Source of the DNA: Patescibacteria group bacterium
GTDB taxonomy: Bacteria > Patescibacteriota > 4484-211
Direction: 5' to 3'
DNA length: 34,222 bases
NCBI GenBank assembly: GCA_018818265.1
Contig: JAHISN010000064.1
Coordinates: forward strand, 1-34,222
Under the pieces are notes generated by a model, which saw only the letters and a program-made list of their open reading frames with translations, had not been told where the DNA came from and made no database searches. Made by a program: the position numbers and the translations under genes. This document shows, one piece after another, positions 9,382-33,806 of this stretch (position 1 is the stretch's first letter; the number at the start of each line of letters is the position of its first letter).

Positions 9382-9689
9382 TTTATTAACTCCAACTTTA
9401 AATGGTTAATGTTACCCTCTCCGTCAATAGCTTCACTTTTTGAATAGACTTTATAATTGTCCGAACCGTAAGTTATCTTGTCGTTAATATTTATAGATAA
9501 AGAACCCTTGCAATAAACAATTGCTTCAATAGTAACCAACTGGCCGTTTGGCAGTAGCTTCTCTTTGTTCTTTTTTTGAAACCTAGCGTTTTGGTCAGTG
9601 CCAGTTCCAAATGTAGCCCTACCATATCTATTGTTGGCAGTCTTTGTAGCTACTGTTATTGTTTGATTGAAAAACCCTACAGGATTCAT
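9360..9689 (-). CDS. Head closure/head-tail adaptor protein
   Basis: 109 aa, small beta protein between connector and gp10-like protein. Confidence 0.6.
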   Translation of the reverse strand: MNPVGFFNQTITVATKTANNRYGRATFGTGTDQNARFQKKNKEKLLPNGQLVTIEAIVYCKGSLSININDKITYGSDNYKVYSKSEAIDGEGNINHLKLELIKWLETST

Positions 9690-10363
9690 ACCTCTATTTC
9701 TCCGACAATGTTCCTAATTCCATTTAGAAGCATTTTAGCTTTTGGGGCAATTAGATCATTGATACGATTTCCAGTACCAGACTTGCTATAAGAATAATCA
9801 CCAATTGACTCACTTTGTATGTTTGCCTTGTTAGTAGAAAAGAAACTATCTCCCATGTTTATTTTATATTCTACTTGGCAGGCAACCGCTCTTTTTAATT
9901 TCTCGGGAATAAATTTGTACCAAGTGTTTGGCACATTCTCACTATCAAAATGAGCGTCTTCTAATCTTGGAAATTTACCTAACTGAAAGATTCTATAATA
10001 AGAAGTACTATCTAGGGACACACTAAATTCTTCTGTGGTTAGCACTCCTGCCAGTGTACTGCTAAGACACATCTTTCTCTCTCCCTGACCAATTCCGCCT
10101 ATAATTTCAACCATACAGTATTTAAAATAGTCTTTTTGAAACAAGTTCTGATGTTTAGTTTGTAGTGTCAAAGATGTGGTAGAGCCACCCGTCGCCATCC
10201 CCCTGTATTCTACTTCAATCGCCTTGTCTTGAAACCCGACATAAGCGTCAATTAATTCCTCCGCCTGCGATATTTGATCTTCCGCTTCATCGTCATCTAT
10301 TACCGTGATATCGGCAAATTCTTCCAGTTCTGCGATTGTAAGATAATTTCTTTTACTAGCCAT
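9686..10363 (-). CDS. Head-tail connector (gp6-like)
   Basis: 225 aa; helical N-terminus EDQISQAEELIDAYVGFQ; synteny upstream of head closure. Confidence 0.65.
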   Translation of the reverse strand: MASKRNYLTIAELEEFADITVIDDDEAEDQISQAEELIDAYVGFQDKAIEVEYRGMATGGSTTSLTLQTKHQNLFQKDYFKYCMVEIIGGIGQGERKMCLSSTLAGVLTTEEFSVSLDSTSYYRIFQLGKFPRLEDAHFDSENVPNTWYKFIPEKLKRAVACQVEYKINMGDSFFSTNKANIQSESIGDYSYSKSGTGNRINDLIAPKAKMLLNGIRNIVGEIEV

Positions 10364-13300
10364 TTTTATATATCCAATTTTTAGTTAATTTATTATACCA
10401 TTTGAAATTGTTCGGTTGTTGGAAGGTCGTATCGTTTTTGTTTTCCCATTTATCTTTAGCCCCGAGATCGCTGACAAACTGAGTGTTGTTTTTTTCATAC
10501 CATTGTTGCTTAGGTGAAGGACTCGGTGAGAATGATGAGGATGGACTTAGTGAAGGTGATTGAGATGGAGAGGCCGATGAACTTGGTGATTCACTAGGTG
10601 ATTGTGACGGAGAAACAGAACTTGAGGGGGATTGGCTCGGACTAATAGAAGGACTTTGGCTCGGACTTGTGGATGAGGACGGTGAAACACTTGGTGAAAC
10701 AGACGGACTGCCCGAAGGGCTAGCTGATGAAGAAGGTGATTTGCTTGGCGACTCGCTTGGGGAAGCTGACTGGGAAACACTAGACGACGGTGATAATGAG
10801 GGAGAGATAGAAGGACTGGCGGACGGAGAAGATGACGATGATGTACTTGAGGACGGAGAAAGGCTGGCGCTATTAGAAGATGATGGACTAGCTGATGGGG
10901 ACACGGAAGATGACGGACTTAAAGACGGACTGCTCGAAGAACTGGGTGATAATGATGATGACGGGGAAACGGATGGGGATTCAGATGAAGAGGGACTTTT
11001 GGAGGGACTTTCTGACGAACTTGGAGACACTGACGGTGACTCACTTGGTGACTCGGATGGAGAAATTGAAGATGATGGAGATAGGCTGGGTGACTCACTT
11101 GGGGAAACGCTTGACGATTCACTAGAAATTTCCGACGGAGAAACACTACTAGACGGGCTTAAAGAGGGTGAGACTGATGAAGAAGGTGAACTAGAGGGGC
11201 TCTCACTTGGAGACGATGAGGGGGAGGTTGATGGTGAGTTTGACGGGCTCTCACTAGGAGACTGCGAAGAACTTGGACTTACTGACGGACTAACAGACGG
11301 CGACTCTGACGGAGACACGCTAGAAGATGGGGACGAGCTTGGACTTTCGGACGGGGATTCAGACGGAGAAACAGAACTACTTGGTGACAAACTAGGTGAA
11401 GCCGAAGACGACGGCGAGACAGATGGCGAGATAGACGGAGAATTAGATGGAGAATTTGACGGGGAAACAGATGAACTTGGGCTGGTAGAAGGTGATTGCG
11501 AAGAACTGGGGCTCAAAGAGGCGCTAGGACTTAAACTAGGTGACTGAGAAGAAGAAGGTGACAAGCTTGGGGAAGTTGATGAGCTCGGGGACTCGCTCGG
11601 ACTTTCACTTGATGATTCACTGGGACTTTCCGAACTTGAAGGAGATAGTGAAGGTGATTGGGAAGGAGAGTTGCTAGGGCTACTAGAAGGACTTAACGAC
11701 GGGCTTTGGCTTGGAGATTCACTAGGACTAACTGATGTCGATGGTGAGGTTGAAGGACTTTCCGAAGGGCTAACCGACGGTGAGATTGAACTGCTGGGTG
11801 AGAGGCTTGGAGATTCTGATGGTGATTCACTAGAGCTTGGAGAAAGCGAAGGAGACACCGAAGGACTTTCGGAGGGGCTCACCGAACTACTAGGGCTTAA
11901 AGAAGGTGACTCGCTGGGACTTTCAGAAGGACTTTCACTAGAACTCGGAGAAAGAGAGGGGGATTCAGATGGCGACAAAGAAGGGGAGATAGAACTTGAA
12001 GGGCTTGTACTCGGGCTTTCGCTCGGTGAAGTACTGGGAGATTCACTGGCAGACGGAGATAAGGAAGGGGATTCTGATGGAGATTGCGAGGGAGAGTTTG
12101 AAGAACTAGGACTTAAACTAGGGCTAGTAGAGGGAGAATTTGAAGGAGACTGTGAACTAGAGGGACTCAAAGAAGGGCTAACACTTGGGCTATTACTGGG
12201 AGAGATACTAGAACTTGGGCTTCGTGAGGGAGAATTAGAGGATGACGGACTACGACTAGGAGAGTTGGATGAAGAAGGACTAATAGACGGTGAATTTGAG
12301 GGAGAGGTGGAAGGACTGTTTGATGAGGATGGGGATAAACTAGGACTTTGAGAAGGGGAAAGAGATGGGGACAAGCTAGAACTAGGGGACAATGAGGGAC
12401 TTTGAGAAGAACTAGGGCTTGGTGAAGGCGACTCTGACGGGCTTTGGCTTGGAGAAGTAGACGGAGATTCGCTAGAACTTGGTGATAAAGATGGAGAAGC
12501 TGAGGGTGAGGCTGATGGACTTGGAGAATTTATAGTTCCGTCATAAAGACTTCCGATTTCGTCAGAAGTTAAGATTCGACTAAAAACAGCCAATTCATCC
12601 AAAACTGCGTCAAGCCCAACAGTTGCCTCTGTGCTTGCACCAACACAAAAAGTTGCCGTGCTATTATAGACAGTAGTCCCTATACCTCCCTGAACCAAAG
12701 TTCCTGCCTCACCAACACCGTTTTTGTAAAAAGTGCATGAATCTGAACTTATGTCAAAAGTCACTGCAACATGTGTCCATCTGCCTGTTGACACCGTAGA
12801 CGTACTTTTTAATTGGATTGCATGTCCACCAGACCAGTCGTTAGTACCATTATCTGTAACACTAACGTACAATTTATTATCGGAGTTTATAAAAAACAAA
12901 TAAGCTCTCTGGTTAGATGTGCCGTTCCACTTACCACATATATACCCGATACCAGTGGCGGTTTTTTTTATCCATGCTGAGATTGTAAAATCGCCAGACA
13001 AATCTAAATCAGTCTGTGAACCATCTGATATGTAAGCATATTGTGCCGAAGACAAAACCAAATTTAGTCCTTTTCCGAAAAAACCAGTTACATAAGACGG
13101 AGAACCAGAAAGGGTTAAATCATTGTTATTTTCGGTTGTGTCCAATGAATTGTCTTCGAATCTCCAATATCCAGCCAGATTATCATCATTCAACAGTCCA
13201 GTAGTGTTTAATTCTACTGAATTTATTGTACCATCATAAATACTGGCTACTTGGTCAGACGATAAGGCAAGCCCGTTAAAAACAGCCACATCGTCAAGTG

Positions 13301-13913
13301 ACCCAGTTACAAAAGAAATTGCCCCAGTGCTAAATGGGTCTCGACAACCAAACCGAACGACGTTTGTCGGGTCATACGAAGGGGCATTTGACCACGCCTT
13401 TGTTGTCTGAAGTGAACCATCGACGTAAATTTTCAAATTCGTTCCGTCCCATGTACCAGTAATCATGTGCCACCCACCATCGCAAACACTTGCCGTACCC
13501 ACGCACTGAGCCCAGTCCGTATTTTCAAGAGTGCCAGTATCTTTTCCTGAAACCAAGACTGCGTACCCAGAAGAATTTACATCTAACATAATTCCTGCGG
13601 TATTTGGTGTAACCGTATATGACGCAAAAATGGCCTGAATTGCTCCTGTTGTAGAGCTTTTTATCCAAGCATTAATCGAGAAGTTGCCCGTCGGCTTAAA
13701 ATCTGCATGGTCTGAAATTGAATACCCGTCATTACCATCTAAATCAACAGCCCCACCAAAAACACCATCCCCCTCCGCTGGGTCAGATATTGCCGTCAAA
13801 GTGTGACCTTGACTACTACTATCTGTAGTTAAAGCCCCAGATTCAAAACGATAATATGATTTGAGATATGTGCTATTAAAAAGACCTGTGGTTATGATTT
13901 CCGCTGAAGCCAT
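10356..13913 (-). CDS. Giant display/fibre-like protein: two LamG-like domains, about 670-aa SPS-repeat region, short WY-rich C-terminus
   Basis: 1185 aa; two concanavalin/LamG-like domains (FSINAWIKSSTTGAIQAIF..., FTISAWIKKTATGIGYICG...), each ending S(I/L)YDGTINS; then SPSx/SPSSSx repeats; C-terminus WYEKNNTQFVSDLGAKDKWENKND.... Confidence 0.85.
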   Translation of the reverse strand: MASAEIITTGLFNSTYLKSYYRFESGALTTDSSSQGHTLTAISDPAEGDGVFGGAVDLDGNDGYSISDHADFKPTGNFSINAWIKSSTTGAIQAIFASYTVTPNTAGIMLDVNSSGYAVLVSGKDTGTLENTDWAQCVGTASVCDGGWHMITGTWDGTNLKIYVDGSLQTTKAWSNAPSYDPTNVVRFGCRDPFSTGAISFVTGSLDDVAVFNGLALSSDQVASIYDGTINSVELNTTGLLNDDNLAGYWRFEDNSLDTTENNNDLTLSGSPSYVTGFFGKGLNLVLSSAQYAYISDGSQTDLDLSGDFTISAWIKKTATGIGYICGKWNGTSNQRAYLFFINSDNKLYVSVTDNGTNDWSGGHAIQLKSTSTVSTGRWTHVAVTFDISSDSCTFYKNGVGEAGTLVQGGIGTTVYNSTATFCVGASTEATVGLDAVLDELAVFSRILTSDEIGSLYDGTINSPSPSASPSASPSLSPSSSESPSTSPSQSPSESPSPSPSSSQSPSLSPSSSLSPSLSPSQSPSLSPSSSNSPSTSPSNSPSISPSSSNSPSRSPSSSNSPSRSPSSSISPSNSPSVSPSLSPSSSQSPSNSPSTSPSLSPSSSNSPSQSPSESPSLSPSASESPSTSPSESPSTSPSSSISPSLSPSESPSLSPSSSESPSESPSESPSLSPSSSVSPSESPSVSPSLSPSSSESPSESPSLSPSSSISPSVSPSESPSTSPSTSVSPSESPSQSPSLSPSSSPSNSPSQSPSLSPSSSESPSESSSESPSESPSSSTSPSLSPSSSQSPSLSPSASLSPSSSQSPSTSPSSSVSPSNSPSNSPSISPSVSPSSSASPSLSPSSSVSPSESPSESPSSSPSSSVSPSESPSVSPSVSPSSSQSPSESPSNSPSTSPSSSPSESPSSSPSSSVSPSLSPSSSVSPSEISSESSSVSPSESPSLSPSSSISPSESPSESPSVSPSSSESPSKSPSSSESPSVSPSSSLSPSSSSSPSLSPSSSVSPSASPSSSNSASLSPSSSTSSSSSPSASPSISPSLSPSSSVSQSASPSESPSKSPSSSASPSGSPSVSPSVSPSSSTSPSQSPSISPSQSPSSSVSPSQSPSESPSSSASPSQSPSLSPSSSFSPSPSPKQQWYEKNNTQFVSDLGAKDKWENKNDTTFQQPNNFKWYNKLTKNWIYKNG
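10513..12525 (-). repeat. Ser-Pro-Ser-x mucin-like low-complexity repeat tract
   Basis: Mix of SPSx and SPSSSx units with variable x (A,L,E,T,Q,N,V,I,R,K,G); codons vary between units. Confidence 0.95.
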
Positions 13914-13939: not shown

Positions 13940-15616
13940 TTATCCCAACAATCTTTTGACATTATCCCATTCGGAGATAGTATCAATCGTGCCTTCCTGC
14001 CATCTTTTGGGTTTACGTCTAAACTGGTCTATCCTCCACCTTTTTCGACTAACATTACTTCCATGAGTAATGTCTATACTAGGCTTAGGAGAATAAAAAG
14101 TCTTGAAGGGGTATGAATTTTCCCACTTAATTCTTCCATGGGTCATCGGTTCGAAACCTATCTTTAACATAGAAAACTCTTTAAACTGGTCTTTTTCCAT
14201 TAAAGCGATTCTTTCTTTAAAATGTTTAATAGCAATATCTCTGTAAACTACCAATCCCGATAAAGGTGAACAGTCATAACTAATAGCAAAACCATCGTTA
14301 AGTCTTAAAAACCAATAGTTTTCCTCGTAATACCAAGTGTTTCTATCTGGTGGAGTAAAGGCAAAATGTTCTGGGGGATACAAGACATCATGCTCACAAA
14401 AGAACACAATGTCTGTATCCAGCTCCTCTAAAGCAGTTAAAATTTGTTTAGTCATGGTCAAATACCCTCTCTCGCCTTTAAAAACTTTGTTCTTACCAAA
14501 ATCCATCGGTTTTAGAGAACAGGACACTATTGGTAATTTATGGTCTCGACAAGCACTTTTCCATAATTGTTTCTGACAAGCTTTCATAACCTTCTCATCT
14601 AACTGATTATCTGTGTAATATATGACCCCTTTTGTGCCTGATAGCTTCACTATAGGCTCTGTGCTTGACGTTTTTTCGACTACTGGTACTTTTCCACCTA
14701 TTTTTTTCAAATCATCTTCTGTCCATTTTGGTACTGGCCAGAATTTCTCTACTAACCAACTAATTGGTCGTTCACCTTTAAATCTCCCATCAAAAAACAT
14801 CTCCCGTGCAGTTTTTTTCGCATTTGAAATCTGACCCTGTCCTAGCAAGTATGGAAAACCAAAATCCCCTCCCTGAGTTCTAAATAAATGCGCATACCAA
14901 GTCTTATGGTTTATTATCACCCTTCCGCCAGAAAGCCAAGTCTTACACGCCACCTCGATTCCTTGAGAACCCCAATTGCCAAAGTTTTCATCACAAATAT
15001 TAAGCTCCCAATATTTATCTCTAGTCAACATAAAACAAGAGCCTTGAAGGGACATGCTTTCAGTTAGGTCTCCTTGGTCTTTGTACCATTGTCTATTTTT
15101 ACAATCATTGAAATATTGAAAGTGAGGTTCTGGGTCAAAACAATACGACGTGGATGAAGGGTTAGTTTTAGCAATCCAAACAACGTCCTTTTCCGTCGGC
15201 TCACCACATACTTTACAGACTCCGCTTGGGCTTTGATATCTGGTATGTCCATTCTTACACTTCCAATTAAATGCATGCAAATTCCTCATTATCGGGGCGA
15301 CAGTCCAGTCATCGTGCATATCAGCCATTAACTTCACGTCAAATCCCTGATCGAAGGCACAATGAGCGTCTACTTTCATCACATATTTTGCTTTTGATAA
15401 TCGGCAAAGTTGATTGGTCATTGCCCTTTGGCCAATTGACTCGGAAACATGAACAACAGTTACCCTAGGATTGTCTTTTATTGGAGTGGCAGGCCAATTT
15501 CCATCACAACCGACTATAATTTCTGTATTACCTTCTATGTGTTGCAAAATGTCATCTATCGTTCTGACCAAAAACTCCTCGTTTCGGGCTGGTATTAAAA
15601 TAGATAAATCGTACAT
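13940..15616 (-). CDS. Two-domain glycosyltransferase: GT2/GT27-like N-terminal half with Zn-ribbon-like insert, plus a second GT-like C-terminal half
   Basis: 558 aa; LSILIPARNEEFL, VDAHCAF, NWGSQGIEVACKTWLSGGRVIINHKTWYAHLFRTQ; insert CKNGH...CKVCG; C-terminal DIVFFCEHDVLYPPEHF. Confidence 0.85.
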   Translation of the reverse strand: MYDLSILIPARNEEFLVRTIDDILQHIEGNTEIIVGCDGNWPATPIKDNPRVTVVHVSESIGQRAMTNQLCRLSKAKYVMKVDAHCAFDQGFDVKLMADMHDDWTVAPIMRNLHAFNWKCKNGHTRYQSPSGVCKVCGEPTEKDVVWIAKTNPSSTSYCFDPEPHFQYFNDCKNRQWYKDQGDLTESMSLQGSCFMLTRDKYWELNICDENFGNWGSQGIEVACKTWLSGGRVIINHKTWYAHLFRTQGGDFGFPYLLGQGQISNAKKTAREMFFDGRFKGERPISWLVEKFWPVPKWTEDDLKKIGGKVPVVEKTSSTEPIVKLSGTKGVIYYTDNQLDEKVMKACQKQLWKSACRDHKLPIVSCSLKPMDFGKNKVFKGERGYLTMTKQILTALEELDTDIVFFCEHDVLYPPEHFAFTPPDRNTWYYEENYWFLRLNDGFAISYDCSPLSGLVVYRDIAIKHFKERIALMEKDQFKEFSMLKIGFEPMTHGRIKWENSYPFKTFYSPKPSIDITHGSNVSRKRWRIDQFRRKPKRWQEGTIDTISEWDNVKRLLG

Positions 15617-15632
15617 AATTTAGTATAACAGC

Positions 15633-16397
15633 CTAACCAACCCACTCCTTGTTCTTTTTAAGGATTCCCCGTGTAATTTGTGGATTATAACCGAGGGATT
15701 CAGCAAAAGCACACCAAGCATAAACATCCTTTGGAATACATTTAGAGCTCATGCCTCTTTTTTCTGGGTATATAAAAGTAAACCATAAATTAAATCTTGG
15801 ATCATCTCCGTAAACTGCGTCTCGAATTTGGTAGTAGTCGACTCCCGAAATTTCGCAAACATCATATAATTCCTGACACTGGGCAACCTTGAAGGCAATA
15901 GCTCTATTTTCGCTTAGTTTGATTATCTCCGCCTCCAATGAAGATACTTGGCGAATAGTTACGTTTGCATTATAAACCTCGGTGTATAGGTCAATTAAAT
16001 CCCTCCTTGCTTCTGGTTGTCCGCCGATAATTAAAAATGGCCTAGCCTTTGGATCTAATAATGGATGTTGCGGTGTCTCACCTAGATACTCTGGCTGAAA
16101 GACTATTTTTTTGTTATATTTTACCGACCAATTTAGGGTGTCGTTTGGGTTTACTGTTGATCTTATTACAATAAGAGGACACTTACACCACTCAACACAT
16201 TCTTCAACAATTGAAGTGTCCAGCCTACCTTCTTCTATACAAGGGGTTGGAACTCCTATAAAAGCCACGTCACAATTATTTACGTCTTCCTTTGTAACAT
16301 TATTTTTTAACATCGGATCGTAAATTGTGGCCTCTGGGAACAACTTCCCCATTGATTTGCCTACCCACCCGAAACCGATTATCGCTATTTTTTTCAT
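15633..16397 (-). CDS. Short UDP-glucose/nucleotide-sugar 6-dehydrogenase-like protein
   Basis: 254 aa; MKKIAIIGFGWVGKSMG Rossmann start, FIGVPTPC, FQPEYLGE, SKCIPKDVYAW (cf. GxCxPKD catalytic Cys). Lacks the usual C-terminal domain. Confidence 0.75.
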   Translation of the reverse strand: MKKIAIIGFGWVGKSMGKLFPEATIYDPMLKNNVTKEDVNNCDVAFIGVPTPCIEEGRLDTSIVEECVEWCKCPLIVIRSTVNPNDTLNWSVKYNKKIVFQPEYLGETPQHPLLDPKARPFLIIGGQPEARRDLIDLYTEVYNANVTIRQVSSLEAEIIKLSENRAIAFKVAQCQELYDVCEISGVDYYQIRDAVYGDDPRFNLWFTFIYPEKRGMSSKCIPKDVYAWCAFAESLGYNPQITRGILKKNKEWVG

Positions 16398-17143
16398 AGT
16401 TTGTTTGGTTGTGCAACAGGCTCATAACTTAAAGAATGAAACAAACCTTTTGGGTTTAGATCATAATTCACGTTATATCTACCTATTGGAAATATATAAA
16501 TTTTAGAACCTACGATTGGTTTAAGACCGTACTTGACGGCATAATGATTCCACCTCGTATTAAAATATGAGTCCTCGCCTTTCTTTGAAGTGGCATGATG
16601 TCCGTAAGTACAAGCCTTCTCTGGGTATCCGCCGAGATTTTCAAATGTAGATTTCTTCATACAAAAAGTATTCCCGTGATATGAAGCATATAAACCCCTC
16701 TTGGAAGTAAAACGTGATTCATCTATCCCGTAATCTTTCAAAACTTGTTTTTCCTGAGTCAAGCACCCATCTTCATCCAAAACTGCCAAAAATCTAGGGA
16801 AAATCATTTTATCACCAGTAAAATTATATGAGTCCATTATTGCCTCGTAAGACAATATGTGATCGGCGTCAGTCATTAAAATATACTCACCAGACGATTC
16901 CTTTACCCCCCTGTTTCTCGCCAACCCCTGAGTCCAAGGGCGTTTATCATTTGTATAGATAATCTTCAAGTTTTTTAAGCTATAGCCCTCATGTCGGGGA
17001 GAACTGCCATCGTCTACTAGTATAAATTCTATATCGTCGGGAAGTTGGAGTTTGGAGAAAAACTTCATTTGCCTCTCTATGACACCGTGACTGTTATAGA
17101 CTGCTATTATTATTGATAGTTTCATTTTACATATAGCCAACAC
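16394..17143 (-). CDS. GT2 family glycosyltransferase
   Basis: 249 aa; MKLSIIIAVYNSHG...FILVDDGSSP...LARNRGVKESSGEYILMTDADH (GT-A, DxD). Internal Met7 may be the real start. Confidence 0.88.
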   Translation of the reverse strand: MLAICKMKLSIIIAVYNSHGVIERQMKFFSKLQLPDDIEFILVDDGSSPRHEGYSLKNLKIIYTNDKRPWTQGLARNRGVKESSGEYILMTDADHILSYEAIMDSYNFTGDKMIFPRFLAVLDEDGCLTQEKQVLKDYGIDESRFTSKRGLYASYHGNTFCMKKSTFENLGGYPEKACTYGHHATSKKGEDSYFNTRWNHYAVKYGLKPIVGSKIYIFPIGRYNVNYDLNPKGLFHSLSYEPVAQPNKL

Positions 17144-17763
17144 TTGTTGGAATTATTGGTTGTTACAAACCAAGGTTTAATTTTATAAGATTTCATCCAC
17201 CCATCGACGGCATTAATAACATTCATGTCCTTCCAACGTCTACTATTTGAGTAATCATCAAAGTCGTGTCCATATATAATTCCGCCCTTTTTTACCTTTT
17301 TTGACCACAAGGCGATATCTTCAACGACGTATTCATAGGCGTGGTTTCCGTCTATAAACACAAAATCTAACGACTCATCGGGAATAGTCTTGACCACCCA
17401 ATTACTCCACCCTTGAATTAAAGTAGCCCTATCACCATATTTTTTATACACCTCGATGGATTCTCTATGAGCGTCTTTTATATCTTCCCTGTGGTAATCC
17501 TTGTATCCTGTGTACACCTCCCAAGCGTCTACACCTATTAGTTGCAAGTTTGGGTTTCTGTCTAAAAGATGTCTCGAATACGAAGCCCTATAAACACCAA
17601 TTTCAGCCCCTTTGTTGAAGCCTAGTTCACACAAAAGTTTTGGTATGTCCTTAAATCTCCCTATTGCCAACATTATCGGGGATGGTTGATTTAGGTCAAT
17701 GTTAAATTTTTTGACGATATAATCTAAAGTTTCCATAATTTTTCTTTCCAATTTGATGGCCAC
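17122..17763 (-). CDS. Class I SAM-dependent methyltransferase (Methyltransf_24-like)
   Basis: 213 aa; GAEIGVYRASYSRHLL...LIGVDAW...DFVFIDGNHAYEYVVEDIALW...GGIIYGHDFD. Confidence 0.8.
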   Translation of the reverse strand: MAIKLERKIMETLDYIVKKFNIDLNQPSPIMLAIGRFKDIPKLLCELGFNKGAEIGVYRASYSRHLLDRNPNLQLIGVDAWEVYTGYKDYHREDIKDAHRESIEVYKKYGDRATLIQGWSNWVVKTIPDESLDFVFIDGNHAYEYVVEDIALWSKKVKKGGIIYGHDFDDYSNSRRWKDMNVINAVDGWMKSYKIKPWFVTTNNSNKCWLYVK

Positions 17764-18587
17764 GACGGCATTAAAGGGAATTGCTCAATTAAACTAATAA
17801 AAAAGTCCTTGTTTTCGACCATCCATTTGCTATAAGAATAAGCATAAGATTTTCTGTTTTCGTTACGGCTCATCCAGTACATCCTTCCATACTTTTGACC
17901 TTTGTGGAGATGGGCATACCAAGTGTTCTTGTTTGTTACCACCCTTCCGCCGTTCAACCATGTAGTAAAAGAAATTTCCTCCGCTTCTTGACCCCAGCCA
18001 GTATATCCCTCAACTTGCATAAAACCCATCTTGTTAAACCAATCTTTTTCCATAAACCAACACGAACCCTGAAACGTGATAGTGTCGTCGATGGGGATAT
18101 CCCACCTCTCTAGCGTCCTCTCATCCCACTTAAAACCGTGAATACCAAGATCAGTAAAAAGAGGTTTGTACATAATATATTCGTAATCTATTGGTGGTCG
18201 ATTATCGCTCTGGGTTTGTAAGCACCAATTCTCTGCGTCCAGCCTATGTCTTCTTGGTATTTGCACCCAATTTGGTTGACTGTCCTTAACCAGCTGTTCA
18301 TCAAACCCTTTAGCGAACATGCAATGTGCGTCAACAGACATAACATATTTACCAGTACAAATTGAAATTGCATGATTTATTCCGTGTCTTTTCTGGGTGT
18401 ATGTGACTTTTGGAAGTCGGATATAATTTACTCTTGGATCTTTGACAATCTCCTCGGCTGGTGGCTCGTAACCGTCTAAAATTGGGAATACCTCTATTTC
18501 ACCTGTCGCATTTTTTAAAATGTCCTCAATCGTATTTTTTAAAAAGATCTCGTTTCTCGATGGAATAACAATGCTTACTTTATCCAT
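17724..18587 (-). CDS. GT2/GT27-like glycosyltransferase
   Basis: 287 aa; SIVIPSRNEIFLKNTIEDIL, YVMSVDAHCMF, GWGQEAEEISFTTWLNGGRVVTNKNTWYAHLHKGQ. Confidence 0.85.
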   Translation of the reverse strand: MDKVSIVIPSRNEIFLKNTIEDILKNATGEIEVFPILDGYEPPAEEIVKDPRVNYIRLPKVTYTQKRHGINHAISICTGKYVMSVDAHCMFAKGFDEQLVKDSQPNWVQIPRRHRLDAENWCLQTQSDNRPPIDYEYIMYKPLFTDLGIHGFKWDERTLERWDIPIDDTITFQGSCWFMEKDWFNKMGFMQVEGYTGWGQEAEEISFTTWLNGGRVVTNKNTWYAHLHKGQKYGRMYWMSRNENRKSYAYSYSKWMVENKDFFISLIEQFPLMPSWPSNWKEKLWKL

Positions 18588-18593
18588 AGTCTG

Positions 18594-19631
18594 TTATATC
18601 AACTTTGACAAAAAATGTCTAATGATCTTCTCTTCCTTATCAAAGTCAACCTTATTTTTAAAATTATAATATGAGTTGTTACATAGTTCTTTCCATTGCC
18701 GAGAGTAATATTCAATCTTATTCTTTATCTCCAAGGGGTTTAAACCGTCAATACAAACACACGTTTTTCCGTCTATCATTAAGTCTTCTCCCAACTTACC
18801 AGAATAATACTCCTTTTTAACAATCATTGGCCTACCACAAGCACTAGCATTGTGAATTATGTGACCGTAACCATCACCGCCCTTTTTCGTATGCCAAATA
18901 AAGCCAGCCTTTGCAATTGTTTTGGCGACTTCCGCCTCACCATGCGCCTGTCCATCACGACACTGACCGCCCATGCACTTAAAATTCCACTCTGGCATTA
19001 GTTTTTCAACCTTTTGGAATAGCTCCCAATCCTCTTTAAACATTCCGTCATTAGAGAAGCAATTAACTAGCGAAGTGATGTTAGGTTCGAACACCTCACT
19101 AGAAGCCCTAGAAAAGACGTTTGTGTCAAATTCTTGATGATATACCACACTATTCTTGTTCGCTATGGCTATGCGAGAAGAGCACATGATATTGTCAGCT
19201 TTTTCGGCCTCCCCGACCCACTGATTGCCAATTTGGAAAATAAGTTTAGGTCTTGACCAGTGTTCTTTGCATAACTTTTTAAACGGTTCAACATGTTTTG
19301 GAATTGAGGCAATTATGATCCCGAAGTTCATCTCCCTAAATTTGTCTAAGGTAATTGCCCTATTTGTCTTTAAAGAGGATATGTCGTGGCAAATGTAAAC
19401 TCCGCTTTCACCAGTAATAACATCATTCACGGGGTCGGTGTTGTCTGGGGTAGCCCCATTAACATCCAAAAACTGTGCTACCGTGGCTGGGTGATCGTAA
19501 ACCTTCCAATATCCTTCATCAAACCACTGTCTGCCGATGGGTCGATAAACTTTCCACCCCAACCTCCTCTCAAATAATAGAATTAATGAATTAAGAAGTC
19601 CTGCATGATGGAAATCACATAGCACGTTCAT
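18594..19631 (-). CDS. GT-B fold glycosyltransferase-like protein
   Basis: 345 aa; C-terminal GFIWHTKKGGDGYGHIIHNASACGRPMIVKKEYYSGKLGEDLMIDGKTCVCID resembles GT1/GT4 acceptor/donor region. Confidence 0.65.
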   Translation of the reverse strand: MNVLCDFHHAGLLNSLILLFERRLGWKVYRPIGRQWFDEGYWKVYDHPATVAQFLDVNGATPDNTDPVNDVITGESGVYICHDISSLKTNRAITLDKFREMNFGIIIASIPKHVEPFKKLCKEHWSRPKLIFQIGNQWVGEAEKADNIMCSSRIAIANKNSVVYHQEFDTNVFSRASSEVFEPNITSLVNCFSNDGMFKEDWELFQKVEKLMPEWNFKCMGGQCRDGQAHGEAEVAKTIAKAGFIWHTKKGGDGYGHIIHNASACGRPMIVKKEYYSGKLGEDLMIDGKTCVCIDGLNPLEIKNKIEYYSRQWKELCNNSYYNFKNKVDFDKEEKIIRHFLSKLI

Positions 19632-20323
19632 TTTCTATCTAAGTATTCTTGGCATACTTTTATAAAGTTAGGATGTAGTGTTTCCTTGCTGTTTAGAGAG
19701 TCGGCAATGTATTTATCAAACCTATCTACTTCATAGTTTGGAACTCCGCCATTTGCAATTAGACTAAAATTACTGCTAAGCCCATTTAAGTGTTCGTATA
19801 GTCCAGCGCTAATTCTAATCACCGAAATGTTCTTTATGTCTTGCTGAAACTTATAAAAATGATCTGCAACGCCTGGGGTAATGCTAAAGTCTCTCCTTGT
19901 TTTGTCTACGACAGCTCTTTTAGCAAAAATACAACAAGGGTGAAGCCTATCCCCTTGATATGCGCCAATTACGTTTACGTTATTTAAGTCCATTGTAATT
20001 TGGCTGATATATTCCCAAAACTCTTCATTGGGGTAAAAATCTTGTTCTGTAAACCACACCCATTCAGAACTACACAAAGTTAGCCCAAAGTTTGTTGATA
20101 TATTTCTCCAATCTTGTCCTGAAAGAACAGGTGGGGACTTAACTACCGTGCAATAACCTCCCATTTCCTCTTTTATAAAATCACTGTAGTCATACCCTTG
20201 ATTTGTCTCGGTGATGACAATAATGACATCTTTAAACCTATTTCTGTTTTCCCTTATAAATTTTCGCCACATTGGATAATCGCAATTTCTTGGCCAACTA
20301 ATTACAATATCTGGTACGATCAT
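19628..20323 (-). CDS. GT-A-like glycosyltransferase-related protein
   Basis: 231 aa; IVISWPRNCDYPMWRKFIREN...SSEWVWFTEQDFYPNEEFW resembles a GT-A core; island context. Confidence 0.55.
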   Translation of the reverse strand: MIVPDIVISWPRNCDYPMWRKFIRENRNRFKDVIIVITETNQGYDYSDFIKEEMGGYCTVVKSPPVLSGQDWRNISTNFGLTLCSSEWVWFTEQDFYPNEEFWEYISQITMDLNNVNVIGAYQGDRLHPCCIFAKRAVVDKTRRDFSITPGVADHFYKFQQDIKNISVIRISAGLYEHLNGLSSNFSLIANGGVPNYEVDRFDKYIADSLNSKETLHPNFIKVCQEYLDRK

Positions 20324-21339
20324 AGTCCTAACTCCTTATATGCTTTTTGTCTTTTTAACACCGTTTTTCTGTGAACTCCGCTAAGAGCATAGATTCTATC
20401 TAAAGCTTTTCGGTATTCTTCCCTAAATTCACATATCTCGTTCGGATCTGAATTATCGTAAAATGTTTGCCACCACTGTATTCTTCTTGCCCACTCATCT
20501 ATGTGTGCCTCGGCCAACTTAAACTCTCTTGGTTCAACACAAATCTTTCTATTTGAAAGACTTATTCCCCTATCATCAACCAAAACTCCACCAACACCAC
20601 TACTCAAACTTCCTACATGAGTCCAAGCCGATAAACCATTCCATAGATACTGTCGTTTTTCCCAGTGAACCAAGTCTTCGGGGCTACCATGATATTGTTG
20701 TAGGCATAAGAACTTTAATCCTTTAGACCTTAATATGAGGCTAGTGTTTACAAAAGTGTCTCCATATCCAGTTTCTTTCATCACATAATTCAATGGTTCT
20801 ACAACTTCACCCTTCTCCCAAGCCTTGGCCTTAAAGTGCCTATCAGTGTCTAACAATGTCTGTGTCTTACAGAAAAAGAAACATGGCCAAAAATTACATC
20901 CATGATCCCCCAAACCCTCATAATCAACTCCCCACTTTCTTTTGGCTTCTTCTAGTATTTCAAAAGCACAACTGCCCCTCTTCGAGCCAACACAATCCAC
21001 CTCTCCGTCCTCAACGTGTTTAAAACAAGAATCAATATGGCCTTTCTTGAAGACATAAGCGTCATCTTCGACCAGCATTACATATTCTTCCTTGCACATT
21101 TCCAATAAGATTTTGATGGCGTCACCATGTTCTATTTGGTGGTCTATATATACAAAACTAGCCCCGTATCTTTCGAGGAGTTTTTGTTCGTACTCTATGA
21201 CCTCTTTCTCTATGCTCGAATTTAAACAAACATATAATTTGTCGACTTCATCCTTATAGTATTTGGCATAGTTCTCAAGCCAATATTTTAATAGGAACGG
21301 GTCGCACGGGGTTGGTAATAAAACTGCTCTACTTCTCAT
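20320..21339 (-). CDS. GT-A-like glycosyltransferase
   Basis: 339 aa; EHGDAIKILLEMCKEEYVMLVEDDAYVFKKGHID (EDD motif). Confidence 0.65.
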   Translation of the reverse strand: MRSRAVLLPTPCDPFLLKYWLENYAKYYKDEVDKLYVCLNSSIEKEVIEYEQKLLERYGASFVYIDHQIEHGDAIKILLEMCKEEYVMLVEDDAYVFKKGHIDSCFKHVEDGEVDCVGSKRGSCAFEILEEAKRKWGVDYEGLGDHGCNFWPCFFFCKTQTLLDTDRHFKAKAWEKGEVVEPLNYVMKETGYGDTFVNTSLILRSKGLKFLCLQQYHGSPEDLVHWEKRQYLWNGLSAWTHVGSLSSGVGGVLVDDRGISLSNRKICVEPREFKLAEAHIDEWARRIQWWQTFYDNSDPNEICEFREEYRKALDRIYALSGVHRKTVLKRQKAYKELGL

Positions 21340-22084
21340 ATTTATTAAAATTATAATCGGATTCGCTGACCTTGTAAAAGCCAGTTAGACCTCTTGGGGT
21401 TGGCAAGTGGAACACGCAAACCGAGCCGTCGAGAACCAGCTGACTGATTGGAGCAGGTATTTTTCCGAATGGCCAAGCAAAGCCGTGTTCCTCGTTAGGA
21501 ATTTGGTGCATGTGTCGGTGTAAGTCGTGGATAAATATGTAACCACCTTCCTTTAGGTGTGGGAAAAACTTGATAAATTCTGCAAATCTTGTCTGGGGTT
21601 CAGTGTCTAATAATATAAAATCATACTTAATTGTTGGCTGATCCCCACCGATGGTTTCTTGGATGGTGGCATTAGAACCTCTCCAATCTTCTGGGATTTT
21701 AAAATCTTTTACATCACCAAAATGGCATTCAACAAAATCTTGAAGACCCATCTTTTCAATTCTACGTTTAGCTTCTACATAAATAACTGGCAAAAACTCA
21801 ACTGTATCCAAGTGCCCTTTATTATTATCCTTCAAAGCCATCCCTAGATAGGAAGCACCAACGGCAACATGAGTCCCTGTTTCTAGTACAAATTCTGGTT
21901 TTAAAACTCTCAAAAATCCGTATAAAAACTCTCCGACCTCACATTCAATACCAGCGTCGTTAAACGCTGTGTATTCAGAAGTGGTTTTATTCCACTCTCC
22001 CTCATTGTGGACAACTAAGCTGGTATCTTTTTCTTGCAATTCTTTTGTGATTGTCATTTGTCTAAGTTTAAATATTTTAACCAT
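21329..22084 (-). CDS. Class I SAM-dependent methyltransferase
   Basis: 251 aa; EFVLETGTHVAVGASYLGMAL...DFILLDTEPQTRFAEFIKFFPHLKEGGYIFIHDLHRH. Confidence 0.78.
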   Translation of the reverse strand: MVKIFKLRQMTITKELQEKDTSLVVHNEGEWNKTTSEYTAFNDAGIECEVGEFLYGFLRVLKPEFVLETGTHVAVGASYLGMALKDNNKGHLDTVEFLPVIYVEAKRRIEKMGLQDFVECHFGDVKDFKIPEDWRGSNATIQETIGGDQPTIKYDFILLDTEPQTRFAEFIKFFPHLKEGGYIFIHDLHRHMHQIPNEEHGFAWPFGKIPAPISQLVLDGSVCVFHLPTPRGLTGFYKVSESDYNFNKYEK

Positions 22085-23091
22085 TGATTCTTAATAGTTT
22101 CCTTACTAAACAACTTAATTGCCGTTTCTCTTCCCTTTTTACCTATTTTTTGGGCATAATCCTTGTTGCTTAATAAGATTGAAATGTAGTCCTTTAATTT
22201 GTCAATTTCATCGCTACAAAAACCGTTTACACCATCCTCGATAATCTGATCTACCTCATAGAAGTCTAGCTGTTCAAACTTCTCAATATTAGCAGTCTTT
22301 TTTCCGATTGCTAAAATGGGAATACCAGTCATCATGGCTTCAATAAATGATAGCGTGTAGCAAGCGGGGTAAGTTCCACCATAGGCGTATGCTCTGGCGT
22401 CCCTCATCTTTCCCTTCATTAACTCATAAGGCAATTCTCCACCATTCAAAGATCCAAGATCATCATTTCCATTACCATATACTTTTGAGTTAAAACCTTC
22501 CATCATCTTAATAATTTCATCGTGGTGGCAGAAATCACGCCTACCTTTCAAGCTTTGGGTGAAGTTAATGACTAAGGGGTCATCACCATTCCAATCTTTA
22601 AATTCGTCTGGGTCTTTATAAAATCTAATCATAGCCGTCTCACCAGCATAATTAGGCAAATTCTTTTCCATTGGGGAATATCTAACCACTTCCAAACCCT
22701 CGTCAATCAATGGCTTTAATCTCTTCTCTAGTCCACCAGTAGACTGTCCTATTGACCTAAAGATAACTCTTTTGTGTTTAATTCTTTGCCAATTCTGAAA
22801 TAAAACATCGGGGCTATGCATAATCATTATCACATCAAAAGGTTCTATTAGTTCTGGGGGAAGTTCTGTCCGTGGGGTACTTCGTGCAATTTGGGCTAAA
22901 TCTTCGTGGTAAACCATTCCCTCTATTGCGGGACGGGGTAGAGTTATATGTCCCTTCGGGTCAATATAAGCCCCGTTCGAAAAGACATCAATTCCCATTT
23001 CGGTAAACAACTTAACTTCGTCATATTCAAGAATAGAATGGCAGGAAATATAGTGTAGTTTCACTTTCCTAAATAATTCATAACGGTACAT
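22054..23091 (-). CDS. GT4-like (GT-B) glycosyltransferase
   Basis: 345 aa; RAYAYGGTYPACYTLSFIEAMMTGIPILAIG...IEDGVNGFCSDEIDKLKDYI. Confidence 0.82.
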   Translation of the reverse strand: MYRYELFRKVKLHYISCHSILEYDEVKLFTEMGIDVFSNGAYIDPKGHITLPRPAIEGMVYHEDLAQIARSTPRTELPPELIEPFDVIMIMHSPDVLFQNWQRIKHKRVIFRSIGQSTGGLEKRLKPLIDEGLEVVRYSPMEKNLPNYAGETAMIRFYKDPDEFKDWNGDDPLVINFTQSLKGRRDFCHHDEIIKMMEGFNSKVYGNGNDDLGSLNGGELPYELMKGKMRDARAYAYGGTYPACYTLSFIEAMMTGIPILAIGKKTANIEKFEQLDFYEVDQIIEDGVNGFCSDEIDKLKDYISILLSNKDYAQKIGKKGRETAIKLFSKETIKNQWLKYLNLDK

Positions 23092-23210
23092 ACTTGAACA
23101 TCGTCACTTCGATTTTGACAGACAAGTACTTTTGGCTTATTGGCTATGTGAACGTAATAGGCCAATACAAGAATTAAACAAATGTACATAATCGTTTCCA
23201 TTTTTCTCAT
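23061..23210 (-). CDS. Small single-TM protein (MRKMETIMYICLILVLAYYVHIANKPKVLVCQNRSDDVQVCTVMNYLGK)
   Basis: Manual translation of the gap between GT genes, 49 aa, below the ORF track cutoff; N-terminal TM then two Cys; overlaps the neighbouring GT start. Confidence 0.55.
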   Translation of the reverse strand: MRKMETIMYICLILVLAYYVHIANKPKVLVCQNRSDDVQVCTVMNYLGK

Positions 23211-24331
23211 AATTGTTTTTGAATAATTTCTAATCTACTTTTCATTATGTCACCAACTACTGGTAAGTCAAATTCTCTCTTGACAGTTTTCTTTGCTTCC
23301 TTACCCATCTGGCTCACTATTTCCCTAGACTCAAACATATACCTCATCTTCTTTTTAACTTCGTCAATATCAACATCCGCCCAGTTCTGGTCTTGTGTGT
23401 ACCAGATTTGATTTCTTGAATTTGCTCTTACTGGGATCATCTTTGGCTCAAGTAACAGTGAATCTACGTTTTGAGTTAGATATTCATGGCAACCACCACA
23501 ATTCGTTGAGATTATTGGTTTACCCATTAGCATGGCCTCAGTCTGCGGTATTCCCCACCCCTCACCTCGATGTGTGCTAACATAAACATCAAATGTCTTG
23601 TGGAAGCGATATATCTGGTGTCTGTCCATTAACTCCTTATAAAGATATAAGGGGGCGTATTTACTCAAATTAAGTTTTCTCTTTATTGCTTTAACGTAAT
23701 CGTCGATCTCTCTTTGTTTCTCTGGCCTAAAACTATCTACATAAGTCTTAATCGTTAAGCTGACGGGCTCTGCTGGGTCAAATTCAGTCCAAAAAGCCTC
23801 TAGTAGCGCCGACGGGTTCTTTCTCTCAGTCCATTCAAACATAGAATAGAATTTGAAGTCTTGATTATTCGAAACTAAATAAGGTTCTATTTCATCTGAA
23901 TTAATCCTACAATCAATGGCCTCTGGTATAACATAGATCGGTTTTGTTACCCCAGCCTTCTCTATTGCTTTTTTATTAAATTCGCTGGCAGTCCATATCT
24001 CATCACAATACTTCTGAACATTATCAGCGAAATCTTTGGGGAGTTTATCTGTCTCCCAGATAACTCTTCCGATGTGGTATTTGCCTTCTTCGTAGTATTT
24101 AGAATATACGTTGGGAGTAGTGTGAAGTATTTTTATACCATAAGATATAGATAGGTCTTGTCGCTTACGACATTCCTCACCCAATTCACCAAAATCTGAC
24201 ACCTCCAATACATAGCTTGGCATTTCGGTTTTCACTTCAACCCCAGCACTCAACAGAGCGCCGACATCATGGCGACCAGCTTCTCCGTATCCCGAATAGT
24301 CTCTTAGTGCACCACAATATTTGATGTTCAT
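23207..24331 (-). CDS. GT4 family glycosyltransferase
   Basis: 374 aa; YSGYGEAGRHDVGALL, SMFEWTERKNPSALLEAF, STHRGEGWGIPQTEAMLMGKPIISTNCGGCHEYL. Confidence 0.88.
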   Translation of the reverse strand: MNIKYCGALRDYSGYGEAGRHDVGALLSAGVEVKTEMPSYVLEVSDFGELGEECRKRQDLSISYGIKILHTTPNVYSKYYEEGKYHIGRVIWETDKLPKDFADNVQKYCDEIWTASEFNKKAIEKAGVTKPIYVIPEAIDCRINSDEIEPYLVSNNQDFKFYSMFEWTERKNPSALLEAFWTEFDPAEPVSLTIKTYVDSFRPEKQREIDDYVKAIKRKLNLSKYAPLYLYKELMDRHQIYRFHKTFDVYVSTHRGEGWGIPQTEAMLMGKPIISTNCGGCHEYLTQNVDSLLLEPKMIPVRANSRNQIWYTQDQNWADVDIDEVKKKMRYMFESREIVSQMGKEAKKTVKREFDLPVVGDIMKSRLEIIQKQL

Positions 24332-24520: not shown

Positions 24521-25744
24521 CTATTTAACCTCACTTAATTGTAATACATTTGTTAGAGCTTTTTTTTCAATAGGCTTAGAATAGAGTTCCTCAACCATCT
24601 GTTTAAGCTTAATAGCCGTTTTTCTAAAAGTCCACTGTCTCACATACCGACTAGCTCTTTTGCCCATCTCTAAAGCTTCATCTTGATGTTCGTATATATA
24701 ACGCATTTTCTTCCTCAGATCTTTCACATCACAAATCACCATCTTTCCAACATCTTCACCCTTATATTTATGATATAGGGCGGGGCAGTCTTCTTTAACT
24801 TTTACTTCATACATACATTCTTTATCAAAATATTCACTTATCCCGTGTGCATTGGGTACAATCGCAGGTAATCCAGTTGCCATACACTCTAGCGGAGTCA
24901 TGCCAAATCCCTCACCCCTTGAAGGAAAGACGAAACAATCAGACTTATGAATCAGTTCAACTAACTCTTTCTCGCTATATTTTTTGCAAATAACTTCTAT
25001 ATTAGGGTACTTGTCTTTAATGATAGGAATTGGCGGACTATTCAGTGTCGTCTTTAAAACCAACTTGACTGGTTCTGATTTATCAAATTCTTGGGTAAAT
25101 GCCTTAAATACCTCTAAAAAACCCTTTCGAACATTAAATGCGTTATAGTGCAAAAAAACAAATGGTTCATGCTTTTCGCTTTTGTTCTCTCTCTCTTTAA
25201 AAGTATATACATCATCGTCGTAGCCCAATGGAATAACATCGGCATTAACACCAGAATTTTTGAATACGTCTCTACACCATCTACTGGGTACAATCACCTT
25301 GTCGGCAGATTGTAAGTATTTTACCCAATCGTCTGGTATTTTAGTACTCTCAAACATCGTATAAATCACCTTGAATGGGTTTTCCATTTTTAGTACGGAA
25401 TATGGATTATGAAATAGTAGTCCAACGAGTTGTTTCTTAAAAACACGGGATATGTCTACGTCTAGGTTGACCAATTCTTTGACAATCTTATCGCTGGCTA
25501 CTCCATAACCATCTTTGCCACCCTCAACTACCGTGGACAAGTAAATGCCTCGAACAAAATTGTTTTGAATAACCTCTTCCCTTCTCGTTGTTACCTTCTC
25601 TGCTATCTTATATCTTTCCATAACGAAATCTCTTTCTTCTTCTGGCGTAATCTTCTCAAATCCTTTTGTATTTAGGTATTTTTCGTATTCATTTGGCTTG
25701 TCTATGCAAACAATTCTTCCTTTCGGGTTTCTTAGATAAGGCAT
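24521..25744 (-). CDS. GT4 family glycosyltransferase (first gene of the glycosylation island)
   Basis: 407 aa; FLHYNAFNVRKGFLEVFKAF, FVFPSRGEGFGMTPLECMATGLPAIVPNAHGISEYF. Confidence 0.88.
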   Translation of the reverse strand: MPYLRNPKGRIVCIDKPNEYEKYLNTKGFEKITPEEERDFVMERYKIAEKVTTRREEVIQNNFVRGIYLSTVVEGGKDGYGVASDKIVKELVNLDVDISRVFKKQLVGLLFHNPYSVLKMENPFKVIYTMFESTKIPDDWVKYLQSADKVIVPSRWCRDVFKNSGVNADVIPLGYDDDVYTFKERENKSEKHEPFVFLHYNAFNVRKGFLEVFKAFTQEFDKSEPVKLVLKTTLNSPPIPIIKDKYPNIEVICKKYSEKELVELIHKSDCFVFPSRGEGFGMTPLECMATGLPAIVPNAHGISEYFDKECMYEVKVKEDCPALYHKYKGEDVGKMVICDVKDLRKKMRYIYEHQDEALEMGKRASRYVRQWTFRKTAIKLKQMVEELYSKPIEKKALTNVLQLSEVK

Positions 25745-25827: not shown

Positions 25828-26742
25828 TTAGAAGGATTCCACTTCTACGAGTCTTCGATCATCTAAGATTGCAACTCCAAAGAGGACATCAAGTGTCAAT
25901 TGGTGTGCACCGATATCTGCATTGTACCAGAACATCGAGCGAAGAGTGATCCCTGTTAAAGGATCGTTGATAACTGCTGAATAACCGCTGAATCCTTTTG
26001 GGGTAGGTAGTGCTCTAGTAGCCAAGACCATACCGTTTTTGGAATAAGCGAAGTTATGATAAGCAACGGGCGAACCAGATGTAGGAATCATTTGAGACTC
26101 AGAAACGAGCATGCTATAGGCTTTAATCATTTCACCTTCGGTGATTTGACCTTGCTTTCCAGTAGCGTCATATCGTGAGAATTTATCAGTACCGAGTAAG
26201 TCATTGTAGATCGTTGAATCACAATAGAAATACTTTTGCTCCAATTTAGGAACTTTTTGATCGGTAAAGAATTTTCGGATAGCTAACATTGAGGTGTCAA
26301 TGGTAGTTTCACTTGTTCTGTTCCAAGTGAGAGTGTTTGTGATTTGTGGGTGGAGATCGACCAAAGACTGTTCAATGGCTTCTGAAAGAGCAATAGCTCC
26401 ATCTTCTCCATATCTCATTTGTGTGTCTTGGTTTTCAAACACCTTAGTAACATCGTCAATTGTGAAGGTAACTTCTTTGTGTTTGTCCAAAGTAACTTCC
26501 TCGTAAGTGCCAGTTGGGTTTTGTTTTGTGAACGCAACACCAGCGACTTTATCGTTTGCTGTTACAGCACCAGTTTTTGGAACTTGGATTTTATCACCAA
26601 TTTGAGCAGTAGCCCAATCACTATCTTTAGACACGGTTTTTGCCATGTTCAAATAGCTAGGTAATCTCTGTAAACATTTTTGGGCAATTATCGTCGGGAT
26701 AAATACCGCATTTGTAGTATTGTTTAATACGTTTTCCGCCAT
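25828..26742 (-). CDS. Major capsid protein (P22 coat-like family)
   Basis: 304 aa; NAVFIPTIIAQKCLQRLPSYLNMAKTVSKDSDW; follows the scaffold gene. Confidence 0.8.
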   Translation of the reverse strand: MAENVLNNTTNAVFIPTIIAQKCLQRLPSYLNMAKTVSKDSDWATAQIGDKIQVPKTGAVTANDKVAGVAFTKQNPTGTYEEVTLDKHKEVTFTIDDVTKVFENQDTQMRYGEDGAIALSEAIEQSLVDLHPQITNTLTWNRTSETTIDTSMLAIRKFFTDQKVPKLEQKYFYCDSTIYNDLLGTDKFSRYDATGKQGQITEGEMIKAYSMLVSESQMIPTSGSPVAYHNFAYSKNGMVLATRALPTPKGFSGYSAVINDPLTGITLRSMFWYNADIGAHQLTLDVLFGVAILDDRRLVEVESF

Positions 26743-32527: not shown

Positions 32528-32793
32528 CTTAAAATGACACTAGAGAGACTCTCTTTGGCGATAGTAACTAAAACCATCTTGTGAGTGTCAATTGTTAATA
32601 GATAACCGCTGTGCCAGAAATATCTGACCCCATCTTGGTTCTTTCCGTACTTTTCCTTTTTATATCTCTTTCTATATATTGGCACTTTCACCTCTCTAGC
32701 CAATTTCCACATACGTTCCAGCATGGCAACACTTATAGTGTTTTCTTTCATCCTCTGCTGGGCGTGAGTTGATATAACTAACGGTCTTCTCAT
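32524..32793 (-). CDS. DUF4258-like small protein
   Basis: 89 aa; ISTHAQQRMKENTISVAMLERMW...YLLTIDTHKMVLVTI. Confidence 0.5.
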   Translation of the reverse strand: MRRPLVISTHAQQRMKENTISVAMLERMWKLAREVKVPIYRKRYKKEKYGKNQDGVRYFWHSGYLLTIDTHKMVLVTIAKESLSSVILR

Positions 32794-33806
32794 TTTAGTT
32801 GATTTATATTATTTTCCACCATCTTTTCGACCAATTTTTTAAAATCAACGTCGGTTTTCCAGCCGATTGATTTTATTTTAGTTGGATCACCTAACAACGA
32901 ACAGGTATCTTTTCTGACAAATCTTGGATCTACGTAAATATACTTTTCCCAATCTTCTATACCAACAAACTTAAATGCTGTTTGTACCAGTTCCCTAATT
33001 GAATGTTGTTCGCCTGTTGCAATAACAAAATCATCTGGCATGTTTAATTGAAGCAACATCCACATTCCCCTAACGTAGTCTGGGGAATACCCCCAATCTC
33101 TTTTAGCGTCCAAGTTTCCCAAACTTATCTTTCCGTCCTTGACTAGTGGTTCATTTTCTTCGTTCAAGGCTGGTGACTCCTTCATACCCAAGCTTATGCA
33201 AGCTACTCCATAGCAGATTTTTTGAGTAACAAATTGAAGACCCCTTCTTTCGCTTTCGTGATTAAATAATATTCCACAAGCAACAAATAAACCCTTGTTT
33301 CTGTAAATATGCGCCATTTGGTGCGCATACATTTTTGAAACCGCATAAGGGTTGCTTGGATTAAACTGTGTTGTTTCCCTTTGAGGACTTTCAAACGCAT
33401 TGCCAAACATTTCGCTTGTAGAGGCTTGATATACCCTCGTTTGTGGGGAATATATGGACACTGCTTCAAAAAGCCTGTGACTACCCAAGGCGTTCACGTC
33501 AGTGGTAAGAAAAGGTTGCTTAAAGCTTTCCGCAGGACTTGATTGCGCCGCTAAATTATAAATTTCATCGAACTGTCCGTCTTTTACTATCTTTACTATA
33601 CTGGTAATATCTGTCATGTCGCCATAAATTAAATTTACTGACCCAAGAAGGTGTTTTATGTTTTGATAATTTGGACAACTAAGCCTTCTAACCATTCCAT
33701 ATACCTCGTATCCTTTATCTAAGAGAAACTCCATTAAATAAGAACCATCTTGCCCATTACATCCAGTAACTAGTGCTTTTTTTCTTTCTTGACTGTTTTT
33801 TTTCAT
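32790..33806 (-). CDS. gmd: GDP-mannose 4,6-dehydratase-like protein
   Basis: 338 aa; ALVTGCNGQDGSYLMEFLLDKGYEVYGMVRR, YNLAAQSSPAESFKQP, ASTSEMFG, NPYAVSKMYAHQM, LFNHESERRG. Confidence 0.85.
   Translation of the reverse strand: MKKNSQERKKALVTGCNGQDGSYLMEFLLDKGYEVYGMVRRLSCPNYQNIKHLLGSVNLIYGDMTDITSIVKIVKDGQFDEIYNLAAQSSPAESFKQPFLTTDVNALGSHRLFEAVSIYSPQTRVYQASTSEMFGNAFESPQRETTQFNPSNPYAVSKMYAHQMAHIYRNKGLFVACGILFNHESERRGLQFVTQKICYGVACISLGMKESPALNEENEPLVKDGKISLGNLDAKRDWGYSPDYVRGMWMLLQLNMPDDFVIATGEQHSIRELVQTAFKFVGIEDWEKYIYVDPRFVRKDTCSLLGDPTKIKSIGWKTDVDFKKLVEKMVENNINQLK

Follow-up and report, generated by a model that had tools for sequence, protein, structure and literature searches.

The 34,222-base contig analyzed here over its whole length (the window) is a tailed-phage genome or a fragment of one, and it belongs to a 1.19-Mb bin of a Patescibacteria group bacterium with a completeness of 97.75%. 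Genes for terminase, portal, minor head protein, capsid, head-tail adaptors and connector, major tail protein, tape measure and baseplate hub were recognized in it. A cluster of glycosyltransferase (GT) and other genes is bounded on the head-gene side by the gene of the major capsid protein (MCP; 25828–26742, phrog_283) and on the opposite side by a head-tail adaptor gene (9686–10363, phrog_541); all window features given with coordinates in the text are on the minus strand unless stated otherwise. Two of the enzymes encoded in the cluster, named here GT-A and GT-B, resemble CAZy family GT27, the eukaryotic mucin-type polypeptide GalNAc-transferases (GalNAc-Ts). GT-A (17724–18587) is a predicted single-domain GT27-like transferase of 287 amino acids (aa). 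GT-B (13940–15616, 558 aa) consists of a predicted GT27-like transferase part (residues ~1–300) and a C-terminal domain (~326–558) without an assigned family. A gene (10356–13913) flanked by the GT cluster and the head-tail adaptor gene starts 27 bp downstream of the GT-B stop codon and encodes a long array of Ser-Pro-Ser (SPS) units.

A preliminary description of this DNA reported two GTs with a VDAHC motif and a second shared block at the positions of GT-A and GT-B. Both minus-strand reading frames and both motifs were confirmed, VDAHC occupying residues 85–89 in GT-A and 82–86 in GT-B. The second block is WGQEAEEISFTTWLNGGRVVTNKNTWYAHL in GT-A (starting at residue 198) and WGSQGIEVACKTWLSGGRVIINHKTWYAHL in GT-B (starting at residue 215). 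It had been written as WG-x4-E-x4-WL-x-GGRV-x8-WYAHL; this spacing is off by 1–2 residues and matches neither protein. The true spacing is WG-x4-E-x5-WL-x-GGRV-x6-WYAHL, which among the open reading frames of the window is found in GT-A and GT-B only.

The same description likened these signatures to those of GalNAc-Ts, and this likeness was upheld by sequence searches, fold comparison and the putative metal ligands. When the single sequences were compared with the PDB by phmmer, the best matches were GalNAc-T10 (E=1.8e-6) and GalNAc-T1 (E=4.7e-6), so that the similarity of motifs is not a matter of chance. Family profiles, built from 71 relatives for GT-A and 39 relatives for GT-B, also ranked GalNAc-Ts first in the PDB (E=2.4e-12 and 1.3e-11, respectively). 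The GalNAc-T match of the GT-A profile covers the whole domain (4–255), whereas other GT2 chains align mainly with its N-terminal nucleotide-binding third. AlphaFold models of GT-A and GT-B had pLDDT values of 94.9 and 90.7, and for each of them GalNAc-Ts were all of the best 50 Foldseek matches. Profile and fold matches include 8uhv, which is Toxoplasma GalNAc-T3 (PMC11074326). In viral structure space the best matches of the models were unnamed or generic GTs with 10–20% identity.

The Mn ligands of GalNAc-T1 are Asp209, His211 and His344 (PMC4202792). Alignment to this enzyme gave D86/H88/H226 in GT-A and D83/H85/H243 in GT-B as the corresponding residues. In the GT-A family these are conserved in 71/71, 68/71 and 71/71 members; in the GT-B family D83, H85, H243 and also R246 are each present in 39/39. 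The sugar-binding Glu of the WGGE motif is Glu in 69/71 members of the GT-A family (W in 16/71, F in 45). The GT-B family has WG in 39/39 members but Gln at the Glu position in 33/39.

These data bear on the possibility that GT-A and GT-B belong to the ordinary GT2 transferases of polysaccharide type and acquired their motifs by convergence. In Pfam both exceed the cut-off for PF00535 (Glycos_transf_2), other matches being weaker and at fold level, and the GT-A profile matched a bacterial chondroitin synthase (E=4.8e-11, best stretch 4–85). PF00535 is, however, a broad fold-level family, and neither protein matched PHROGs, so that family libraries alone are unable to decide the class. The whole-domain match and the listed fold matches, all of them GalNAc-Ts, speak against an ordinary GT2 enzyme. 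So do the active-site residues: instead of the inverting GT2 signature (DxD with the xED base) both proteins carry DxH with a conserved distal His, and the Asp of the xED base was not seen after the conserved Glu in GT-A relatives, where A, F, P, G and S are commonest. We regard this explanation as very improbable, and placement among GT2 polysaccharide synthases, which the preliminary description had kept as an alternative, was not borne out. The GT27-like assignment is well supported by the sequence comparisons and predicted structures.

Several features separate the two enzymes from typical GT27 members. No Pfam match to a ricin-type lectin was found in GT-A, which is just 287 aa long, or in GT-B, whose C-terminus matches no family. 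Hydropathy scans detected neither an N-terminal type II membrane anchor nor any membrane segment in GT-A or GT-B (maximum 19-residue values of 0.95 and 0.81, respectively), and both proteins start at the catalytic fold. Because of the absence of the lectin and the anchor we call them GT27-like and not GT27. They share with GT27 the best-matching GT-A fold, the DxH and distal His, a partly conserved WG..E block and a Ser/Pro-rich repetitive partner, but are prokaryotic/viral, apparently cytosolic and only about 20% identical, and GT-B has an added C-terminal domain and an insert. The insert (15182–15259, residues 120–145) is Cys-rich and zinc-ribbon-like (C120, C134, C137), and it weakly resembles the zinc ribbon of ribosomal protein eL37 (E about 0.05). 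The C-terminal domain (13940–14638) was also found as free proteins of ~210–260 aa, several per locus (for example L286:12367–13005); no Pfam family matched the domain or its stand-alone copies.

The candidate substrate is the 1185-aa virion protein encoded at 10356–13913. It is composed of N-terminal Laminin_G_3 (concanavalin A (ConA)-like) domains, an SPSx stalk and a C-terminal tail of ~50 aa. The stalk (approximate limits 10512–12527) contains 141 Pro among its 666 residues and has Ser at 99.7% of alternate positions. Reverse-strand reading frames at 10669–11547 and 11671–12351 were rejected as genes, being read-throughs of the SPS repeat. A second SPS-bearing virion protein, a baseplate-hub-like tail protein (3306–5612), has a shorter SPS linker at residues ~173–290 (about 4743–5096). 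In the loci L025, L026 and L055 there are Thr/Pro-rich arrays (TTTTTPAPTTTT) besides SPS arrays, next to the same enzymes, which suggests Thr as an alternative acceptor.

SPS arrays, counted at a minimum of 10 units, were present in 73 of the 93 distinct viral contigs found via the GTs, and SPSx arrays in 40/43 GT loci with visible phage hallmark genes; none occurred in 50 random viral contigs, a set that was not matched to the GT set for host or habitat. For this reason three further controls were used. When loci were searched by the SPS codon pattern alone, a GT was found in 5/7 loci with at least 40 units and in 0/113 others; of the two GT-less loci, L233 begins inside the SPS gene and L271 begins 1.6 kb upstream of it. 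Among loci anchored on the MCP and chosen without regard to GT or SPS, nine had both, four with enough sequence had neither and none had one alone (Fisher p=0.0014; the two query contigs were left out of the count). The third control was L157 (G391), a relative of the window phage whose capsid protein is 66% identical to that of the window. It keeps seven cluster genes, and GT-A, GT-B and the SPS protein are absent throughout its 23.7-kb contig, a fragment; this is a natural loss or the state preceding acquisition. Co-inheritance of whole phage genomes was rejected as the cause of the linkage, since hardly any homologues of the window's structural genes exist in other GT loci, while GT, methyltransferase and SPS genes recur. 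The preliminary description had linked the GTs to the neighbouring gene through its SPS tracts. The tracts are real, the link is backed by the co-occurrence tests, and the idea that they are the substrate is probably right.

The enzymes could also glycosylate mainly other virion proteins, such as the major capsid or tail tube protein, and not SPS arrays. Phage GTs are known to glycosylate capsid and tail-tube proteins in Che8, Corndog and Myrna (cited in PMC12363180), and the seven cluster genes kept in L157 in the absence of the SPS protein and the GT27-like enzymes indicate that some GTs act elsewhere. However, L157 lacks the SPS protein together with both GT27-like enzymes, SPS arrays accompany the GT across unrelated capsids, and arrays found from the DNA pattern alone predict the GT. 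We consider other main targets improbable.

In unrelated phage backbones the cassette is located downstream of the MCP gene, often directly before the head-tail connector. It lies between MCP and connector in the window, L016 and L050, and has the same general placement in the unrelated backbone of L072. One backbone found repeatedly (L034, L066 and others) has the order MCP, small SPS-tailed protein, GTs, larger SPS protein and, where visible, connector-type genes. The small protein encoded directly after the MCP gene (L034:8973–9953, L066:9039–9947, L043:4810–5715 and about 35 others) consists of a conserved domain of ~115 aa followed by an SPS tail at the C-terminus. The domain follows the pattern MATFELK...LEAEGNTLPTGY.GFK.GA.F.DLDK and has no Pfam match. 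Its hidden Markov model gave 40 matches, 36 of them with at least five SPS units; two strong matches are themselves truncated or carry short SPS-like tails, and two weak ones are probably unrelated. We consider this protein a candidate capsid decoration protein. A tblastn search with GT-A and GT-B against about 50,000 phage records gave no match.

The position of the cluster is also relevant to a different role, in which it makes or alters an O-antigen-like host cell-surface glycan, for example in phage exclusion or host adhesion, with the SPS proteins acting as simple stalks. Patescibacteria phages carry sugar-nucleotide and ConA-lectin genes that were interpreted as auxiliary genes for host adhesion (PMC12911398). 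Roles of this kind are often filled by GT4 and GT2 enzymes; the window GT2 at 16394–17143 is weakly GtrB-like. Yet the cluster sits among late structural genes, from capsid to connector, GT and SPS presence coincide in capsid-anchored loci, and GT-A and GT-B have polypeptide transferases as closest relatives and no membrane segment. A host-glycan role thus seems unlikely, and the GT-SPS linkage favours a virion role over the published reading. The phages of that report resemble the window in host group, nucleotide-sugar genes and ConA-like lectin domains; genes interpreted there as serving host adhesion are taken here to belong to a virion glycoprotein cassette.

Homologues of the Methyltransf_24 methyltransferase (17122–17763) occur at 74 viral and 27 bacterial GT loci, and this gene therefore belongs to the mobile cassette. 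The GT2 enzyme (16394–17143), with its weak match to GtrB-like families, is likely to extend the glycan. In the short nucleotide-sugar dehydrogenase (15633–16397, 254 aa; homologues in 22 cassette loci) the N-terminal and central domains were matched and the usual C-terminal UDP-binding domain was not. The genes from 18594 to 23091, kept in L157, comprise two without a family (18594–19631 and 19628–20323), a weak GT2 (20320–21339), a methyltransferase (21329–22084) and a weak GT4 (22054–23091). Two GT4 glycosyltransferases (23207–24331 and 24521–25744) adjoin the capsid gene. A GDP-mannose 4,6-dehydratase (32790–33806) would contribute to nucleotide-sugar supply.

The GTs and capsid protein of an IMG/VR contig (L004) are 100% identical to those of the window, and no terminal direct repeat closing the window into a circle was found at the repeat lengths tried. 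Genomes of the bin's phylum are 0.4–2.0 Mb in size, and ribosomal protein L30 is absent in 56 of 59 sampled members, this bin included. Loss of L30 is a feature tied to the Candidate Phyla Radiation (CPR), and both properties fit Patescibacteria (CPR). Strong matches to the enzymes are sporadic in this phylum (5/380 genomes).

When 84,980 species genomes were scanned, 35 bacterial loci were found: 31 in CPR-labelled metagenome-assembled genomes (MAGs), three labelled "bacterium" or "uncultured bacterium" and one in a Sedimentisphaerales MAG. The latter (L307) is the sole named non-CPR bacterial locus and has a GT-A homologue, with no SPS array seen. Many of the 35 loci lie on chromosomes, where very large SPS proteins have TatC, cohesin or dockerin proteins in their vicinity. 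TatC was found in 13/35 bacterial and 0/99 viral loci, and phage hallmark homologues in 1/35 bacterial loci; as several CPR loci also have housekeeping surroundings, we rejected the explanation that all bacterial loci are prophages. Six CPR-chromosome cassettes (L347, L348, L349, L350, L351 and L354, which are extensions of L294, L313, L283, L282, L287 and L299) end in SPS proteins of 907 to >2600 aa, that of L349 being complete at 2615 aa. The large CPR SPS proteins have no obvious signal peptide. Several are encoded close to tatC and to cohesin/dockerin-type proteins, and the C-termini of some resemble phage fibre proteins. Phage and chromosomal copies are intermixed in the GT-B tree, where supported branches force at least two switches; the window enzyme groups with chromosomal copies from Collierbacteria and Parcubacteria (support 100/93 and 100/100).

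Based on these observations we propose, with a probability of about 0.68, that the locus is a cassette with which CPR phages modify their virion proteins by mucin-type O-glycosylation. GT-A and GT-B would be cytosolic, metal-dependent GT-A-fold glycosyltransferases of a GT27-like clade which put sugars on Ser (or Thr) hydroxyls of SPSx arrays in a mucin-type manner. Either GT-B or GT-A may prime Ser of the arrays; the other partner, together with the GT2/GT4 enzymes and methyltransferases, would then build and cap the glycan using sugars of which the phage's own dehydratase and dehydrogenase would supply a part. As a result, the particle would bear a brush of glycosylated stalks, formed by capsid-decoration and fibre proteins, and the cassette would circulate among phages and chromosomes of Patescibacteria. 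Several points weigh against this proposal. The SPS arrays could be unglycosylated spacers. Lectin and membrane anchor are missing from both enzymes, and Foldseek deviations are large (root-mean-square about 4–9 Å over ~300 columns), though E-values and probabilities are strong. GT-B has Gln at the sugar-binding Glu, so its donor may differ. Finally, two cluster genes have no family match, and the random contigs were an unmatched set.

Virion glycosylation is also described for mycobacteriophages with the phage GTs Che8 gp110 and Corndog gp38 (Freeman et al. 2023, cited in PMC11256854 and PMC12363180). In both cases the GTs are phage-encoded; there they modify virion proteins, and here this is proposed. 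Passages of these two papers dealing with the mycobacteriophage systems describe no SPS partner, and the Che8 GT genes are near the genome end, whereas those of the window are between capsid and connector. Homology of Che8 gp109/gp110 to the GT-A profile was rejected (hhalign probability about 0.2), and Che8 gp110 gave no good PDB match.

GT27 mucin-type glycosylation is regarded as a eukaryotic process. Searches of open-licence papers found no description of a counterpart in phages or CPR, though an earlier description elsewhere is possible. As a tentative extension, towards which we lean slightly less than away, CPR bacteria and their phages may share a prokaryotic mucin-type O-glycosylation: chromosomal SPSx "bacterial mucins" (reaching 2615 aa or more, next to TatC) on the one hand, and on the other a mucin-like coat that phages bear on their capsid decoration and fibre proteins, perhaps in order to mimic or bind the host surface. 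If the proposed function is true, a compact cytosolic GT27-like enzyme with a natural repetitive acceptor would be useful for mucin engineering in E. coli. One class of CPR-phage sugar genes would then be virion parts and not host "auxiliary" genes, and the cassette would offer a testable handle on the encounter of phages with ultra-small episymbiotic cells.

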